From an uncultured Flavobacteriales bacterium (GTDB lineage: Bacteria > Bacteroidota > Bacteroidia > Flavobacteriales_D > Parvicellaceae), in assembly GCA_905480225.1 (NCBI GenBank), contig CAJQPO010000126.1, positions 1 through 38,525 on the forward strand: a stretch of DNA of 38,525 nucleotides, in the 5' to 3' direction. The position numbers and the translations under genes were made by a program. Below are positions 25,379 through 33,605 of this stretch, piece by piece; within the stretch, counting starts at the first letter, position 1; each line of letters starts with the position of its first letter. The notes beneath the pieces are model-generated. The model was not told the origin of the DNA and ran no database searches. It saw only the letters and a list, made by a program, of their open reading frames with translations.

Positions 25379-26935
25379 ATGTCTAATACCGTATCAGATC
25401 ATTTACACCAACTAATCAAGTCGCTGTCAAAAGCTGAAAAGAGATATTTTAAAATTTACTCCAAACGCCATACAATTGGAGATAAAAATAACTACTTATT
25501 ACTTTTTGACGCTATTGAAAAGCAAACTGACTATAATGAAGATGCTGTTCTTAAGAAGTTTAAAAACGAGGCATTCATTAATCGATTTTCTATTACAAAA
25601 ACAAGACTTTACGATCACGTGCTGAAAAGCCTCGACGCTTTTCATTCGAATAGTTCTGTTAATGCCCAACTCAAAAGACAAATACACTACGCTGAGATTC
25701 TTTACAAAAAATCGTTATACAAACAGAGTTCGAAACAATTAAAAAGCGCCAAAAAAATTGCTTACAAGTACGAAAAACATACGACACTTCTGGAGATTTT
25801 TATGTGGGAGAAGCTGTTAATTGAAAAAGATAATTACACCCATACAAAATCAAAAGAACTTCAAGAAATTCTTAACGAAGACCGACTAACAATAGAGAAA
25901 ATCGGCAATTACGTTCAATTTTGGAATGTGAAGAGTCGACTTTTTCAAATCTTGCATCAGCAAGGCCGGGCTAGAAGCGCTGATGAGCTTGAAAAATTTA
26001 AAAGTATTATTGATACTGCTTTGCTAAAAAGTGAAGACAAAGCATTATATTTTGAAACAAAATATTTATTTCACCACATTTACAGCGCCTATTTTTTTGC
26101 CGCAAGAGATTACAAGCAATGCTATGTACATTTAGGCAAATTGTTATTACACATAGACTCGAATAAGGATCAATTCAAAGAAGAGCCTAATATATATTTT
26201 TCAGTACTCACTAATATAATCTATGTCACAAGCCAGTTAAATGACTACAAGCAATCCTTTCATTATCTAGAACAATTACGAGCACTTCCTGAGGCTCTGA
26301 GACTAAACTCGAATGAAGACCTGGATATTAAACTATTTTCATCTACCAACAGTATTGAATTGACACTTTACGCCATCACTGGACAATTTGAAAAAGGCAT
26401 CAATCTTGTACCCCAAATTGAAGAAGGTTTCAGGCTTTACGGCGAAAAAATCAACAACGTTAGAAAGGCCTATATAGAAGCCAACATAACCATTTTGTAT
26501 TTTTGTAAAGAAGAGTTCAATGCTGCTTTAAAGTGGAGCAATCAAGTGCTTAATAATGCAGATATCGACAAAACACTAGATATATTTTGTTTCACACAAA
26601 TTCTTAATCTGTTAATTCATCTTGAGCTCGAGAACTACAGACTTGCTCCTTATGCTTTAAAATCAGCGCACCGTTATTTAAAAACTAGAAACCGGACCTA
26701 TCAATTCGAAACCGTTATGCTGAATTTTATTGGAAACAAATTAAAAAGCAAATCGGTAGATGAAGATGATCTACTTTACCAAAACCTATCTGAAAAACTA
26801 CAAAAACTGCAGGCTGATCCCTTTGAGAAATCAGCTTTTGAATACTTTAATTTTGTTGCTTGGGTGAAAAGCAAGATGGAAAAAACTTCATTTGAAACGA
26901 CAATAAAAAAAGAATTAGGCAAGGTTAGTCTTTAG
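25379..26935 (+). CDS. Conserved-type large helical protein of unknown function
   Basis: 518 residues without signal peptide or membrane segment, so cytoplasmic. I do not recognise a named family. It starts LHQLIKSLSKAEKRYFKIYSKRH and continues with basic, Tyr/Lys-rich amphipathic helices of TPR-like rhythm (for example HYAEILYKKSLYKQSSKQLKSAKKIAYKYEKH broken into repeats, and later YKQCYVHLGKLLLHI and FNAALKWSNQVL). The overall look is an all-alpha solenoid, suggesting a scaffold or protein-binding role; that is inference from composition. It follows the two-component cluster by about 220 bases and converges on thiL with an 11-base 3' overlap. Similar proteins from related marine Bacteroidota are expected but not verified. 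Confidence 0.8.
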   Translation: MSNTVSDHLHQLIKSLSKAEKRYFKIYSKRHTIGDKNNYLLLFDAIEKQTDYNEDAVLKKFKNEAFINRFSITKTRLYDHVLKSLDAFHSNSSVNAQLKRQIHYAEILYKKSLYKQSSKQLKSAKKIAYKYEKHTTLLEIFMWEKLLIEKDNYTHTKSKELQEILNEDRLTIEKIGNYVQFWNVKSRLFQILHQQGRARSADELEKFKSIIDTALLKSEDKALYFETKYLFHHIYSAYFFAARDYKQCYVHLGKLLLHIDSNKDQFKEEPNIYFSVLTNIIYVTSQLNDYKQSFHYLEQLRALPEALRLNSNEDLDIKLFSSTNSIELTLYAITGQFEKGINLVPQIEEGFRLYGEKINNVRKAYIEANITILYFCKEEFNAALKWSNQVLNNADIDKTLDIFCFTQILNLLIHLELENYRLAPYALKSAHRYLKTRNRTYQFETVMLNFIGNKLKSKSVDEDDLLYQNLSEKLQKLQADPFEKSAFEYFNFVAWVKSKMEKTSFETTIKKELGKVSL

Positions 26936-27971
26936 CTCCCATCCCGTCCCATCCCTGCGCTTTCAATTCAACGGAAACACCATTTTTTGTTATCATATTT
27001 AATCCCGCTGTTTTTGCCGTAATGTGTCCGATTATAGATAAATCCTGATTGCTTTTTATTTTATCGTAATCTTCCAAAGTAATTGTAAAAAGCAGCTCAT
27101 AATCTTCTCCTCCACTTAAAGCACAAAGTGTTGGATCCAAATTAAAGTCCCTTGCCAGTTGATAGGTGGTTGGGTCAATGGGGATTTTATCCTCGTACAA
27201 CTCAACACCTACGTTGGATTGGTCACAGATGTGTTTAATTTCTGAAGACAACCCATCTGAAACGTCTATCATACTTGTTGGGCAAATATCTAGATCCGCA
27301 AGTAGTTTAATGATGTCTTTCCTTGCCTCTGGCTTAAGCTGTCTTTCCAAAATGTAATCATGTCCATCTAAATCCGGCTGCATATTTGGATTGGCTTTCC
27401 AAACTTCTTTTTCTCTATTCAAAAGCTGAAGCCCCAAATAGGCTCCTCCAAGATCTCCCGACAAGACCAATAAATCTGTTTCTTTTGCCCCGCTTCGCTG
27501 GACTGCCTTCCCTTTGACCACCTCACCAATGGCCGTAATAGAAATAATTAAGCCCGCGTTGCTTGTGGTGGTGTCTCCACCAATGATATCAACTCCATAG
27601 ATTTCACAAGCCAAAACCATTCCCGAATAGAGCTCTTCAATTGCTTCTACAGAATATTTTGAAGAAATGGCTAAACTAACCGTTACCTGACGAGGTTGTG
27701 CATTCATGGCATAGATATCCGAAACATTTACAACAATTGACTTATAACCCAGATGCTTTAATGGACTGAATGCCATATCGAAATGAACTCCTTCTACAAG
27801 CATATCGGTTGAAACTACCATTTCTCGGCCTTCATAATCTAAAACTGCACCATCATCCCCGATTCCAATTACGGTCGATGAATTACTATGCTTAATACCA
27901 GATGTTAGGTGTTTAATTAATCCAAATTCACCAAGATCTGCCAAATCCGTTCTTGTAGTCTTTTCTTGCAT
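26925..27971 (-). CDS. thiL: Thiamine-monophosphate kinase ThiL
   Basis: 348 residues. It phosphorylates thiamine monophosphate to thiamine pyrophosphate with ATP and Mg in the cytoplasm. The metal- and nucleotide-binding motifs are in order: GIGDDGAVL, VVSTDMLVEGVHF, VNVSDIYAMNAQP, IIGGDTTTS, LSGDLGGAYLGLQLL, MIDVSDGLSSEI and SGGEDYELLFT, with the closing GWDGMG. Length is typical. It is a single gene, divergent from the suf operon across 208 bases, with a -7 element at 28021-28028 and an 11-base convergent overlap with the helical protein gene. No thiamine riboswitch was seen upstream. Confidence 0.96.
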   Translation of the reverse strand: MQEKTTRTDLADLGEFGLIKHLTSGIKHSNSSTVIGIGDDGAVLDYEGREMVVSTDMLVEGVHFDMAFSPLKHLGYKSIVVNVSDIYAMNAQPRQVTVSLAISSKYSVEAIEELYSGMVLACEIYGVDIIGGDTTTSNAGLIISITAIGEVVKGKAVQRSGAKETDLLVLSGDLGGAYLGLQLLNREKEVWKANPNMQPDLDGHDYILERQLKPEARKDIIKLLADLDICPTSMIDVSDGLSSEIKHICDQSNVGVELYEDKIPIDPTTYQLARDFNLDPTLCALSGGEDYELLFTITLEDYDKIKSNQDLSIIGHITAKTAGLNMITKNGVSVELKAQGWDGMGAKD

Positions 27972-28059: not shown

Positions 28060-28075
28060 TTAGCTTTAAAGCTAA
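28060..28075. promoter_or_regulatory. Perfect 16-base palindrome upstream of the suf promoter
   Basis: TTAGCTTTAAAGCTAA is fully self-complementary over 16 bases. It lies just upstream of the suf -33 element and about 32 bases upstream of the thiL -7 element, so it is a candidate operator for either gene. Confidence 0.45.
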
Positions 28076-28080
28076 ATTAC

Positions 28081-28111
28081 TTGTTTCCATACCACTTTTG
28101 TGGTATTTTTG
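28081..28111 (+). promoter_or_regulatory. Bacteroidota-type promoter of the suf operon with overlapping inverted repeat
   Basis: A -33 TTG (28081-28083) is followed after exactly 20 bases by a perfect -7 TATTTTTG (28104-28111). Between them and overlapping the -7 by three bases lies the perfect inverted repeat ATACCAC-TTTT-GTGGTAT (28089-28106). A dimeric regulator bound there would block polymerase. The leader to the sufA ATG would be about 65 bases. Confidence 0.65.
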
Positions 28112-28179
28112 TGGCCAATTAAGTTCTTATTTAAAACGAGTCTAAATAATGTGCTCGTTTTTAAAATAGAAAACCGTGT

Positions 28180-28503
28180 ATGATAACAGTAACAGATGAT
28201 GCGAAAGATCGCGCTTTGGAGCTTATGTCCGAAGACCAAAAAGAAGGTCAATTCATTAGGGTTGGCGTAGAAGGCGGGGGATGCTCTGGCCTTATGTACC
28301 AATTAGAATTTGACAATCAACTGTCAGAAAATGACAAAGAATTTGAAAATAATGGCGTTAGGGTCGTCGTAGACAAAAAGAGTTTTCTCTATTTAATCGG
28401 TACCACATTGGACTATTCTGGTGGTCTTAACGGCAAAGGGTTTGTTTTTAAAAATCCTAATGCAGACCGGACTTGTGGTTGCGGAGAATCATTTTCGATT
28501 TAA
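28180..28503 (+). CDS. sufA: A-type iron-sulfur carrier (SufA/IscA/HesB family)
   Basis: 107 residues, typical length. It accepts assembled Fe-S clusters from SufBCD and passes them to client proteins. The three conserved cysteines are Cys35 in VEGGGCSGLMY and Cys99/Cys101 in the C-terminal DRTCGCGESF. First gene of the suf operon, 15 bases before sufB. Confidence 0.95.
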   Translation: MITVTDDAKDRALELMSEDQKEGQFIRVGVEGGGCSGLMYQLEFDNQLSENDKEFENNGVRVVVDKKSFLYLIGTTLDYSGGLNGKGFVFKNPNADRTCGCGESFSI

Positions 28504-28518
28504 GATAAATCAAAAGAC

Positions 28519-29964
28519 ATGGCATACACTGAAGAAGACTTAAAAGAAGAACTGAAGGGTAAAGAATACGAATTTGGCTTTACAACAGACATTGAGTCTG
28601 ATAAAATTTCTGTCGGGTTAACGGAGGACACGATTCGTTTAATCTCTGAAAAAAAGAATGAACCCGATTGGCTTTTGTCTTACCGATTGAAAGCTTTCAA
28701 TGTTTGGCAAGCAATGAACGAACCAGAATGGGCACACGTGCATTACAACAAGCCGGATTTCCAAGCCATTTCTTATTACGCTGCACCCAAACAAAAAAAG
28801 GTTTTAGAAAGTCTCGATGAAGTTGATCCCGAATTGCGTAAAACCATGGAGAAACTCGGAATTTCTTTAGAAGAGCAAAAACGACTATCTGGTGTAGCAG
28901 TAGACTTTGTGATGGATTCCGTTTCGGTTGCTACTTCTTTTAAAGAAAAGCTAGGAGAACTAGGTATTATTTTTTGCTCTTTTGGCGAAGCAGTTCAAAA
29001 TCATCCAGATTTAATTAAAAAGTACATGGGGTCCGTTGTTCCCATGACCGATAATTTTTATGCCGCACTTAATTCAGCCGTTTTTACCGACGGCTCATTC
29101 TGTTATATTCCAAAAGGTGTTCGCTGCCCAATGGAGCTTTCTACTTATTTCAGAATCAACGAATCAGGAACCGGGCAATTTGAAAGAACCTTAGTTGTCG
29201 CTGATAAAGGTAGCTATTGCAGTTATCTTGAAGGGTGTACAGCGCCTCAAAGAGACGAAAATCAGCTGCACGCTGCAGTTGTCGAACTCATTGCCCTAGA
29301 TGATGCAGAAATAAAATATTCAACTGTTCAAAATTGGTACCCAGGTGATGATAAAGGCGTAGGTGGCGTATTCAATTTTGTAACAAAACGTGGCCTCTGT
29401 GAGAGAAATGCAAAAATATCTTGGACGCAAGTCGAAACTGGGTCCGCAGTTACCTGGAAATACCCGTCATGCATTTTGAAAGGTGATAACTCAATTGGTG
29501 AATTTTATTCAGTAGCTGTTACGAATAACTTCCAACAAGCAGATACCGGTACTAAAATGCTTCATATCGGCAAGAATACTCGAAGTACAATCATTTCTAA
29601 AGGAATTAGTGCAGGCAAAAGTCAAAACTCATATCGAGGATTGGTTAAAATTGGTAAAGATGCTCAAAACGCGAGGAATTTTTCGCAGTGCGACTCCTTA
29701 TTGATGTCTGATCGCTGCGGCGCACATACATTTCCCTATATAGAGTGTGACAATCCATCGGCAAAAGTTGAACACGAAGCAACTACCTCGAAAATAGGGG
29801 AAGATCAAATTTTTTATTGTTTACAACGAGGCATAGACGAAGAAAAAGCCATCGGCCTGATTGTAAATGGTTATGCAAAAGAAGTTTTAAATAAACTTCC
29901 AATGGAATTCGCTGTTGAAGCGCAAAAACTATTGGAAATATCATTGGAGGGATCTGTAGGATAA
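28519..29964 (+). CDS. sufB: Fe-S cluster scaffold subunit SufB
   Basis: 481 residues, full length. With SufC and SufD it forms the scaffold on which Fe-S clusters are built. Landmarks are [35 protein letters not shown], the beta-helix core with [18 protein letters not shown], the [17 protein letters not shown] stretch and [22 protein letters not shown], whose first Cys corresponds to E. coli SufB Cys405, needed for cluster assembly. [21 protein letters not shown] contacts SufC. Six bases separate it from sufC. Confidence 0.97.
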
Positions 29965-29970
29965 GAAAAC

Positions 29971-30735
29971 ATGTTAAAAATAAACAATTTACACGCCTCG
30001 ATAGAGGGAAAAAAGATACTAAACGGAATTACTCTTGAAGTAAACGCCGGTGAAATTCATGCAATTATGGGGCCTAACGGTTCTGGAAAATCCACTCTGG
30101 CATCGGTAATCGCGGGGAAAGAAGAATATGAAATTGAAAGTGGAGAAATCCTTTTTAACGATGAGCAACTTGCTGATCTAAAACCAGAAGAAAGAGCACG
30201 AGAGGGTGTTTTTCTTGCTTTTCAATATCCCGTTGAAATTCCTGGTGTGAGTAATATCAATTTTCTTCGTACTGCCTTAAACGAAAAAAGGGCACACCAA
30301 GGACTTGAACCAATGGCAGCTAAAGAATTTTTAACCTTGGTTAAAGAAAAGGCTGCGCTTGTTCAATTAGACGACAAATTAAAGAATCGATCTGTCAATG
30401 AAGGATTCTCAGGGGGCGAGAAAAAACGAAATGAAATCTTCCAAATGGCCATGCTCAATCCAAAGCTAGCTGTACTTGACGAAACTGATTCTGGGCTAGA
30501 TATTGATGCACTGAGAATCGTTGCTCATGGTGTAAACACATTGAAATCCGCAGAAAACGCCACTATTGTAGTCACTCATTATCAACGACTGCTGGATTAC
30601 ATCGTCCCAGACTTTGTCCACGTTTTATACAATGGTAAAATTGTTAAAACAGGTGGTAAAGAGCTTGCTTTAGAGCTTGAGGAAAAGGGCTACGATTGGA
30701 TTAAACAAGAATTAGGAGAGGAAATAAAAGTATAA
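29971..30735 (+). CDS. sufC: Suf ATPase SufC
   Basis: 254 residues. This ABC-type ATPase powers conformational change of SufBCD. Walker A is GPNGSGKST, the Q-loop is AFQYPVEIPGVSN, the signature is NEGFSGGEKKRNEIFQM, Walker B is LAVLDETDSGLDIDAL and the H-loop is VVTHYQRLLDYI. There are no membrane segments; it is a soluble ABC protein, as expected. The sufD ATG follows one base after its stop. Confidence 0.97.
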   Translation: MLKINNLHASIEGKKILNGITLEVNAGEIHAIMGPNGSGKSTLASVIAGKEEYEIESGEILFNDEQLADLKPEERAREGVFLAFQYPVEIPGVSNINFLRTALNEKRAHQGLEPMAAKEFLTLVKEKAALVQLDDKLKNRSVNEGFSGGEKKRNEIFQMAMLNPKLAVLDETDSGLDIDALRIVAHGVNTLKSAENATIVVTHYQRLLDYIVPDFVHVLYNGKIVKTGGKELALELEEKGYDWIKQELGEEIKV

Positions 30736-30736
30736 A

Positions 30737-31969
30737 ATGGAAGAAGCTGTAACTAAAAAAAATCGGTTCTTATCCAATCTAACCGCAGGAAATTCAGTCC
30801 ACTCAGATGCTGCGCTCAAAGAACTCGAACACTTGGAGTTTCCGAATAGAAAAACCGAAGACTGGAGGTACACTCGTGTCGCTTCACTTATTAATAAACA
30901 CCTTCGAGAAAGCGCCGTATTACCGGAAACAGAAAATTTTAATATCCCTCAATTACAATCATATAAAATTGTTTTTTCTAATGGGAACCTGATCAGAAAT
31001 GATGTAGCTAATAATAACCGTGTCACCATAAAGAACCTAGAGACCTCAGATCTTCTTTTGAATAGTCAAGCAAGCCTAGATGAAATCTTCACCACTATCA
31101 ATACTGCTTTTACGCATGGTGGAGTATACATTCACCTTGATAAAAACACGATACTAGACAAACCCATTGAAATTATTCACCTAATAGATGGGCAAAATAC
31201 TTTTGCCCAAATTCGAAAACTAATCGTTTTGGAACAAGGTGCTGAAGCACAAATAGTAGAAGGGTATTATGCGTCTGAAAAGGGATTGTCATTCACAAAT
31301 GCGGTCTCAGAAATCATTGTGAAAAATAATGCTAAACTCCATGTAGATAAAGTTCAATATGAATCTGAAGAGCATTGGCATATAAATTCGGAATACGTTT
31401 ATCAAGAAAGCAATTCGAATTTTACAATTAACACCATTACTCTTAATGGAGGAACAGTAAGAAATGGCTTAAATATTTCAGTTGACGGCAATAACTGCGA
31501 AACGAATCTCAATGGGCTTTATTTATTAAAGGGCAATCAACATGTAGACAATCACACAAAAGTGGATCACAAACAGCCACATTGTACCTCTTCTGAGCTT
31601 TATAAAGGAATGATTGATGATCAAGCGACTGGTGTTTTTAACGGTAAAGTTTTCGTAAGGGAAGACGCACAAAAGATTGAAGCATTTCAACAAAACAGCA
31701 ACATCTTATTGTCACAAAATGCCAGTATGAATGCAAAACCAGAACTGGAAATTTATGCTGATGATGTAAAATGCAGTCATGGCTCAACAACCGGACAATT
31801 TGATGATGAGGCCTTGTTCTATTTAAAATCTCGAGGGATCAGTGAGAAAAATGCACACGCATTAATGGCTGCTGGTTTTGCAGAAGATGTTTTAGTCAAT
31901 GTTACCAATGAGTTTGTGAAGCTGCACATTAACGAATTACTCAAAGAGAGGTTTGATTGGGAATTCTAG
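30737..31969 (+). CDS. sufD: Fe-S cluster assembly subunit SufD
   Basis: 410 residues. Partner of SufB in the SufB-SufC2-SufD complex. The N-terminus has LEFPNRKTEDWRYTRV, a family hallmark, and the C-terminal part has DDVKCSHGSTTGQFDDEALFYLKSRGI, with the His matching E. coli SufD His360, implicated in cluster formation. The middle is a beta-helix similar to SufB but shorter. Order and spacing fit a single suf transcript. Confidence 0.95.
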   Translation: MEEAVTKKNRFLSNLTAGNSVHSDAALKELEHLEFPNRKTEDWRYTRVASLINKHLRESAVLPETENFNIPQLQSYKIVFSNGNLIRNDVANNNRVTIKNLETSDLLLNSQASLDEIFTTINTAFTHGGVYIHLDKNTILDKPIEIIHLIDGQNTFAQIRKLIVLEQGAEAQIVEGYYASEKGLSFTNAVSEIIVKNNAKLHVDKVQYESEEHWHINSEYVYQESNSNFTINTITLNGGTVRNGLNISVDGNNCETNLNGLYLLKGNQHVDNHTKVDHKQPHCTSSELYKGMIDDQATGVFNGKVFVREDAQKIEAFQQNSNILLSQNASMNAKPELEIYADDVKCSHGSTTGQFDDEALFYLKSRGISEKNAHALMAAGFAEDVLVNVTNEFVKLHINELLKERFDWEF

Positions 31970-31971
31970 CC

Positions 31972-33186
31972 ATGGAAGTAACTCAAATACGTACTGATTT
32001 TCCGTTACTTTCTAGAAAAGTACATGGGAAACCACTTGTTTATTTAGATAATGGTGCGACGACTCAAAAGCCGCAAATCGTAATTGATGCCATTACCGAT
32101 TACTACACAGAATACAATAGTAATATTCATCGCGGTGTGCATCACCTAAGCCAGTTAGCTACGGAAAAATATGAAGGAGCCCGTAAAACTATACAGCAAT
32201 TTATTGGTGCACAATTTTCTCATGAAATTATTTTCTCTCCTGGAACAACAAGCAGCATCAATTTAGTTGCTTCATCATGGGGCAGAGCTAATGTTTCTGC
32301 GGATGATGAGGTATTGATCTCCGCCATGGAGCACCACAGTAATATCGTCCCTTGGCAAATGTTATGTGAGGAAAAAGGGGCGAAGCTTAAAGTAATTCCC
32401 ATGAATGATAATGGGGAGTTAATAATGGAACAATTTGAATCCTTGCTCTCCAGCAAAACTAAAATTGTTGCTATTAACCACATATCCAACACATTAGGAA
32501 CAATTAACCCCATTGAGGAAATCATTGCGATGGCACATGATAAAGGGTCCTTAGTTCTTATTGACGGCGCCCAAAGTATTGCTCATATGCCCATAGATGT
32601 CGTAAGTTTAAATGCCGACTTTTATGTCTTTTCTGGGCATAAATTATTTGGTCCAACCGGAGTAGGAATTCTTTATGGCAAAGAAGCTATTCTGAACGAA
32701 ATGCCCCCCTATCAAGGAGGTGGAGATATGATCAAGTCTGTTAGTTTTGAAAAAACTACCTACAACGAACTGCCGCATAAATTCGAGGCAGGAACACCCA
32801 ATATTGTTGGCGGAATTGGACTTGGAAAAGCAATAGAATACATCAATGAAATAGGATTTGATTTCATTATTGAACAAGAAAGCCAATTAAAAAATGCAGC
32901 CACCAACATGCTAGAGTCCATTGAAGGTGTCAAAATTATTGGGCAAGCACAACAGAAAGCATCGGTCATTTCTTTTACCATAAACGGATTCCACCCGCTT
33001 GATGTAGGAACCATCCTTGATCAGCTGGGAATTTCTATTCGCACCGGGCATCATTGCACTCAACCCATTATGGACTTTTACAATATCCCAGGAACCATCA
33101 GAGCATCTTTTGCTTTTTACAATACCCTGGAAGATATTGAAAAGTTAAGAGCAGGTATTTTAACAGCAAAAACAATGTTAAGCTAA
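31972..33186 (+). CDS. sufS: SufS-type cysteine desulfurase
   Basis: 404 residues from the ATG at 31972; an in-frame TTG at 31957 lies inside sufD and is rejected. This PLP enzyme takes sulfur from cysteine and hands it to SufE. Motifs are RTDFPLLSRKVHGKPLVYLDNGATTQKP at the start (family-typical, broken here only by wording), HHSNIVPWQ, LVLIDGAQSIAHMPIDV, the PLP Lys224 in VFSGHKLFGPTGVG and the persulfide Cys362 in RTGHHCTQP. Group II (SufS) type. TAATG junction with sufE. Confidence 0.96.
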   Translation: MEVTQIRTDFPLLSRKVHGKPLVYLDNGATTQKPQIVIDAITDYYTEYNSNIHRGVHHLSQLATEKYEGARKTIQQFIGAQFSHEIIFSPGTTSSINLVASSWGRANVSADDEVLISAMEHHSNIVPWQMLCEEKGAKLKVIPMNDNGELIMEQFESLLSSKTKIVAINHISNTLGTINPIEEIIAMAHDKGSLVLIDGAQSIAHMPIDVVSLNADFYVFSGHKLFGPTGVGILYGKEAILNEMPPYQGGGDMIKSVSFEKTTYNELPHKFEAGTPNIVGGIGLGKAIEYINEIGFDFIIEQESQLKNAATNMLESIEGVKIIGQAQQKASVISFTINGFHPLDVGTILDQLGISIRTGHHCTQPIMDFYNIPGTIRASFAFYNTLEDIEKLRAGILTAKTMLS

Positions 33187-33605
33187 TGACTATTGAAGAT
33201 ATAGAACGTGAAATAGTTGATGAGTTTGACTTGTTCGAAAGTTGGCTCGAGAAATACGAATACCTCATTGAATTGGGAAAAGACCTGCCACTTATAGAAA
33301 GTTCGGAACAAACAGATGAAAACTTAATCGCAGGATGTCAGTCAAGGGTTTGGCTTCACGCAAAACTGGCGGAAGGATTGCTTGTCTTTACCGCTAATTC
33401 TGACGCAATAATTACGAAAGGAATCATTTCGTTGTTAATAAGAGTTCTTTCTAATCAAAATGCGGCAGATGTATTGGGTGCCGAATTGAAATTCATTAAT
33501 GAAATAGGTTTGACGGAACATTTATCACCTACACGATCCAATGGATTAGTAAGCATGGTTAAACAAATGAAGAATTATGCTTATACATTTTCCAACACGA
33601 AATAA
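33186..33605 (+). CDS. sufE: Sulfur acceptor protein SufE
   Basis: 139 residues. It receives persulfide sulfur from SufS and stimulates it. The active Cys51 is in LIAGCQSRVWL, the family signature, preceded by LIELGKDLPLIE. It starts on the last base of the sufS stop region (TAATG), indicating translational coupling, and sufT begins one base after its stop. Confidence 0.95.
   Translation: MTIEDIEREIVDEFDLFESWLEKYEYLIELGKDLPLIESSEQTDENLIAGCQSRVWLHAKLAEGLLVFTANSDAIITKGIISLLIRVLSNQNAADVLGAELKFINEIGLTEHLSPTRSNGLVSMVKQMKNYAYTFSNTK

Follow-up and report, generated by a model that had tools for sequence, protein, structure and literature searches.

A conserved dyad at the suf promoter of a Flavobacteriales bacterium, its pairing with a predicted Fur box, and a candidate NarL/LuxR-type regulator

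The suf promoter and its palindromes

The window analysed here is the whole 38,525-nt stretch of contig CAJQPO010000126.1 (assembly GCA_905480225.1) from an uncultured member of the Parvicellaceae, with a G+C content of 38%. It contains a suf operon headed by a sufA-type gene, and the region that separates this operon from a divergent thiL-like gene holds the suf promoter and the dyad-symmetric sequences listed in Table 1. A first-pass annotation of this DNA had described two perfect palindromes together with a promoter of the form TTG-N20-TATTTTTG, one of the palindromes reaching into the -7 box. Both palindromes are present and the promoter reads as described; the last three bases of the promoter palindrome, dyad A, are the first three of the -7 box. 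The annotation placed both palindromes correctly but omitted a more conserved element, dyad B.

Table 1. Features at the suf locus (window coordinates)
Feature	Position	Strand	Basis or remark
sufA-type gene (Fe-S_biosyn family) at the head of the operon	28180..28503	+	open reading frame list and domain match
Remaining suf operon, frames read as sufB, sufC, sufD, sufS and sufE	28519..33605	+	names by eye from translations
thiL-like gene, divergent from suf (AIR synthase-related domains)	26925..27971	-	thiL name by eye
suf promoter -33 element, TTG	28081..28083	+	direct reading; the -7 box follows after 20 nt
suf promoter -7 box, TATTTTTG	28104..28111	+	shares three bases with dyad A
Dyad A, ATACCACTTTTGTGGTAT, core TACC-N8-GGTA	28089..28106	.	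proposed NarL-type regulator site; conservation
Dyad B, TTATTTAAAACGAGTCTAAATAA, predicted Fur box	28127..28149	.	15/16 match to TATTTAGA-N5-TCTAAATA
16-bp palindrome, TTAGCTTTAAAGCTAA	28060..28075	.	judged probably chance, outside the system; conservation ends at G002

As bare sequence, neither palindrome is above chance. Perfect 7-4-7 repeats number 8 in the window compared with a mean of 5.3 in 30 dinucleotide shuffles, and perfect 16-bp palindromes number 2 compared with a mean of 0.87 in the same number of shuffles. Because such palindromes are expected by chance in the window, the question becomes one of conservation, and it is conservation that decides.

In G002, the nearest relative (SufA 98% identical), the 16-bp palindrome carries a single mismatch, and in G001, the third genome of the genus, it is gone. 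Across 87 sufA upstream regions it scored no better than reversed sequence, except in its own genome and in G002. The earlier suggestion that it might serve thiL was not borne out in this comparison, and it was rejected as a thiL operator for lack of conservation beyond G002. It is probably a chance occurrence.

Conservation of the two dyads upstream of sufA

A sufA match was found in 90 of the 100 relatives sampled, and the upstream region was usable in 87 after a motif filter had dropped L060, L094 and L095. The core of dyad A, ATACC-N8-GGTAT, scored at least 9 of 10 in 42/87 sufA upstream regions, as against 0.4 expected from dinucleotide shuffles, and in 34 of these 42 its right arm runs directly into TAnnTTTG. 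When 395 genomes of the class were searched, 44 had the embedded form, ATACC-N8-GGTATTTTTG. Among 27 new loci with the embedded form that were read, 16 (own locus included) were sufA promoters in which a Fur-box-like dyad follows, and the sufA promoters with this form include families outside the order. Conservation of the promoter palindrome at sufA thus extends well past close relatives, so that for this palindrome the first-pass annotation withstands its own refutation test (lack of conservation upstream of sufA in close relatives), and sequence comparison lends good support to the reading of dyad A as an operator.

Dyad B, TATTTAGA-N5-TCTAAATA, is more conserved than dyad A: it was found at a score of at least 14/16 in 69 of the 87 relatives and in none of the shuffles. 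An exact text search with its sequence returned one matching paper, which concerns the Fur box of Riemerella anatipestifer. That box is ATTTAGAATTATTCTAAAT, and gel shifts were performed on chosen promoters with whole promoter fragments, as described in the available part of the paper (PMC5609570). Dyad B is of the same sequence type and likewise stands at iron genes in the same order, whereas dyad A is a separate sequence that goes unmentioned in the available part of that source; suf is listed there as iron-regulated and is not among the Fur boxes given in that part (PMC5609570). The feoAB genes of R. anatipestifer are under Fur regulation according to the part available of another paper (PMC10434265), and a different, classical box is quoted for this species in the accessible text of a third (PMC7976709). 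The own genome has one match to the FUR family (E 9e-25, G000:C33). Dyad B is thus a predicted Fur box, which would give classical iron repression.

B-type sites elsewhere in the order lie at genes reading as nuoA, nqrA, cytochrome oxidase and a cytochrome c/ACIII-like operon (names by eye); at L233, L234, L238, L240, L242, L244 and L247-L249 such dyads stand upstream of these respiratory genes, which use iron and do not take it up. Neither G085 nor G087 (family f9, genus g37; 98-99% complete) gave a Fur-family match; their sufA upstream regions are without dyad A, and dyad B is eroded in both.

The gaps between dyads A and B at suf fall at 8-12, 16-17 and 20-22, with no single helical phase. 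In the sufA upstream regions L066, L085 and L089-L091, the -7 box under dyad A has decayed; a second -7-like box is found about 40 nt downstream of the dyad, and the Fur box stands between the two. The suf promoter may have shifted in these genomes while dyad A was kept. With this arrangement in L089 and L090, where the second box is 40 nt further along, a repressor role of dyad A at suf is less than certain.

Dyad A at iron-uptake genes and its spacing to the -7 box

The search for other copies of the palindrome that the first-pass annotation had called for yielded a second near-perfect dyad A in the own genome, at a TonB receptor and accompanied by a Fur box. Near-matches in the same genome on C17, C19 and C122 lie within coding frames and were rejected. 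A further survey covered the six near-complete genomes of one genus (f8/g16), where 16 chosen sites were read and four that fell in coding frames were set aside. Besides suf, these six genomes all have a non-coding dyad A at feoAB, and TonB receptors with a non-coding dyad A were likewise found in six f8/g16 genomes; at L279 the feoAB dyad lies within a short predicted frame at feoA. Other sites of dyad A are at genes reading as imelysin, DUF4856, DUF6607 and a CbiX-like lipoprotein operon (names by eye). Matches in a cysM-like frame in four genomes (L218, L219, L225, L453) reflect conservation of coding sequence and were not taken as operators.

The distance from the end of dyad A to TAnnTTTG (-7) was 22 nt at 28 distinct sites (of which two, L218 and L453, lie in the cysM-like coding frame and are to be discounted), 21 nt at 2 sites and 23 nt at none, in a sample much of which had been picked for a good A site and not for its spacing. 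The control with reversed arms gave no sites at any gap to the -7 box. Dyad A at uptake promoters is usually near a Fur box, and the position of dyad B at promoters is variable, unlike the exact spacing of A to -7. Placing the centre of the -7 box at -7 would put that of dyad A at about -42, the position of a class II activator. This 22-nt geometry at uptake genes suggests an activator site rather than only the operator of a repressor; the dimer that binds A is likely to be an activator at uptake promoters because a repressor needs no single exact spacing.

Taken with the sites at sufA, these sites point to dyad A as an old conserved control site that is shared by suf and iron-uptake genes and paired with a Fur box. 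The earlier proposal of an operator for an undescribed iron or Fe-S regulator remains the best reading, given that the other conserved sites are iron-uptake promoters. It missed the fixed 22-nt geometry at uptake genes.

Candidate binders of dyad A

Dyad A can be read in 7-2-7 form as TACCACT-TT-TGTGGTA, two inverted heptamers 2 bp apart with the ends TACC and GGTA, and position frequencies show that these TACC/GGTA arms are conserved. The palindromic 7-2-7 site of Escherichia coli NarL, TACCCCTAAAGGGGTA, is described in the available part of one paper as a 16-bp inverted repeat with the same ends and spacing, TACC-N8-GGTA (PMC4549865). That source also has a 7-2-7 site near -43 activating napF and yeaR, which resembles dyad A at the uptake genes, and a site at the start repressing frdA, which resembles dyad A at suf (PMC4549865). 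The NarL heptamer is given as TACYYMT in the accessible text of PMC4886647. Dyad A does not match this full heptamer, its fifth base being A in most sites (0.66 at position 6 of dyad A) and not C or T, so dyad A is said to share the layout only and is not called a NarL site. Its inner heptamer bases differ from those of NarL sites, and its targets are iron genes, not those of nitrate respiration. Because the 16-bp core has the 7-2-7 layout TACC-N8-GGTA, we infer that A is bound by a dimer of NarL/LuxR type.

An uncharacterised protein of this type, Cys3-LuxR, is encoded in the own genome upstream of the TonB receptor that bears dyad A, with one small gene between them. Like NarL it has a receiver and a GerE domain (PF00072 and PF00196, both above the Pfam cut-offs); it differs from NarL in its conserved cysteines and in an acidic pocket that is atypical for a response regulator (by eye). 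A fold search matched it to ordinary full-length response regulators, and its closest solved relatives by both sequence profile and fold are VraR/LiaR (4gvp, 5hev; 30-31% identity in the fold alignment). VraR and LiaR are regulators of cell-envelope stress, a role other than the one proposed for Cys3-LuxR, for which no NCBIfam model reached its cut-off. The predicted model has a mean pLDDT of 81 and places the third cysteine in a low-confidence linker.

Five families or proteins were profiled as possible binders (Rrf2, DtxR, Fur, Crp and Cys3-LuxR) over 88 genomes, the 87 above and G096 restored, of which 43 have dyad A at suf (A+ genomes). Searched within the order, Cys3-LuxR has orthologs in 42/43 A+ genomes when partial matches (G026, G038, G063, G077) are counted as present; these are counts of genomes, uncorrected for kinship, and the one A+ genome without it, G025, has a completeness of 74%. 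Eight A+ genomes (G000, G008, G015, G043, G080, G083, G086, G097) have Cys3-LuxR as the only match of its kind at E<=1e-10, with the A score of G080 resting on a doubtful site. Family f13, represented by six genomes, shows distant paralogs at most, and A at suf is missing from all six; this joint absence may represent one loss event. Cys3-LuxR also occurs in 34 genomes without A at suf. Four genomes (G001, G003, G011, G024) have lost A at suf and kept it at the uptake promoter beside the Cys3-LuxR gene.

Orthologs were read from a subset of the genomes with Cys3-LuxR, 70 in all, with frames found by the HTH. Two cysteines are invariant in 70/70 and a third is present in 57/70. The 13 that miss the third cysteine comprise ten genomes (g4, g9) without A at suf, G008 and G015, in which A is kept, and G049, whose sufA region is unusable. 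The Asp at reference position 56, the candidate phospho-acceptor, is invariant (70/70), and the DNA-reading helix is nearly so, including in genomes that have lost A at suf. Within 250 nt upstream of the Cys3-LuxR gene, 41/70 have a Fur box scoring 14/16 or better, as do 36 in a further set of 80 loci; dyad A was not found upstream of Cys3-LuxR's own gene, with a best score of 8/10 over 30 loci.

Other features of these loci were also observed. The small gene between the Cys3-LuxR gene and the TonB receptor with dyad A in the own genome (L226 2435-2836, minus strand; C98) encodes a protein of 134 aa that matched no Pfam or NCBIfam model and looks like a lone degenerate receiver domain. At L405 and L410 (3699-3716), a feoA-like gene with a dyad A promoter directly follows the Cys3-LuxR gene. 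The record L390 (CP034120.1), titled Glaciecola amylolytica, encodes a Cys3-LuxR with 98% identity to the Fluviicola chungangensis protein; this title appears to be mistaken.

Several other explanations of dyad A have to be weighed. One is that an A+T-rich promoter yields such palindromes by chance; it agrees with their counts in the window, which are as expected, and holds for the 16-bp palindrome (28060-28075). As a general account it is barely credible, and for dyad A it is refuted, given that both arms of dyad A are kept at sufA over many families, that the left arm lies outside any promoter element, and that the 22-nt spacing peak appears at other genes. IscR (Rrf2 family) and DtxR are classical regulators of suf or iron uptake, and IscR at suf and isc operons offers the likeness of an Fe-S- or iron-responsive regulator at an Fe-S assembly promoter. 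That one of the two binds A, as in other bacteria, would agree with the presence of each in part of the A+ genomes: Rrf2 was above cut-off in 18 of the 43 and DtxR was present in 33. However, Rrf2 is missing in 25/43, DtxR in 10/43, and the six f8/g16 genomes with dyad A, which are 99-100% complete, have neither. The own genome is among the 25, with no Rrf2 above cut-off and two weak matches (E 2.5e-4 and 7.3e-4), and the site itself differs from that of IscR; the first-pass annotation had already observed that the promoter palindrome is unlike the 25-bp IscR type-1 site, and we agree. These absences refute an IscR or DtxR-type repressor as a general explanation, and it is very improbable. Crp-type HTH proteins are missing in 3/43 A+ genomes, and IscR/Rrf2, DtxR and Crp were each rejected as the binder of A on account of such absences.

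Fur is the only iron regulator found in all A+ genomes (43/43), A and B co-occur at iron promoters, and in the available part of PMC5609570 the gel shifts used whole promoter fragments, all of which would agree with Fur binding A as a second type of site. We nevertheless think this improbable, as A and the Fur box have no common core, most f13 genomes have a full-length Fur-family match yet no A, and A stands at a single fixed distance from -7, whereas the position of B varies. A more serious contender, to which we give a substantial probability somewhat below even, is that another unrecognised iron or Fe-S regulator (e.g., of XRE, MarR, AraC or CsoR type) binds A and that Cys3-LuxR is a bystander in the Fur regulon. 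Dyad A is clearly an operator in this comparison, the profiling covered only five families or proteins, and Cys3-LuxR has a wider distribution than A at suf. Against this, the NarL-like layout of A, the co-occurrence profile and the closeness of gene to site (in G000, G002 and G001, and at feo in g2) all point to Cys3-LuxR, which would then be the likeliest candidate for the binder of dyad A.

The reading we prefer, at a probability just short of even, is that suf has a composite iron-responsive promoter with Fur on dyad B and the NarL/LuxR-type Cys3-LuxR on dyad A. As iron falls, Fur would leave dyad B and Cys3-LuxR would be made. Bound at about -42, Cys3-LuxR would activate the uptake promoters; at suf it would sit on the -7 box and restrain or tune transcription. 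The A-binding dimer is likely to be a modulator at suf, probably a repressor, as it would cover the -7 box there. The cysteines of Cys3-LuxR may carry an iron or Fe-S signal; they may bind iron or a cluster, or form a disulfide. Weighing against this reading are the 34 genomes with Cys3-LuxR and no A at suf, the near-constant DNA-reading helix in genomes without A at suf, the loss of the third cysteine in the A+ genomes G008 and G015, the mismatch to the full NarL heptamer and the lack of A upstream of the Cys3-LuxR gene.

In the open-licence literature, suf control in Bacteroidota is hardly described, and a search of it for suf regulation in this phylum and for the letters of dyad A returned nothing on point. 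It is conceivable, although we consider it rather doubtful, that Bacteroidia govern Fe-S assembly and iron uptake with a second iron regulator beside Fur, a NarL-type response regulator that has become an iron or Fe-S sensor with cysteine ligands, acts on TACC-N8-GGTA, activates uptake promoters and occludes the -7 box of suf. Such a protein would be a functional equivalent of IscR drawn from an unrelated protein family. With an operator, a small regulon of fixed geometry and one named candidate, suf control in Bacteroidota becomes tractable. If it is true that a cysteine-bearing NarL-type protein senses iron or Fe-S, it would be a new family among the Fe-S regulators.
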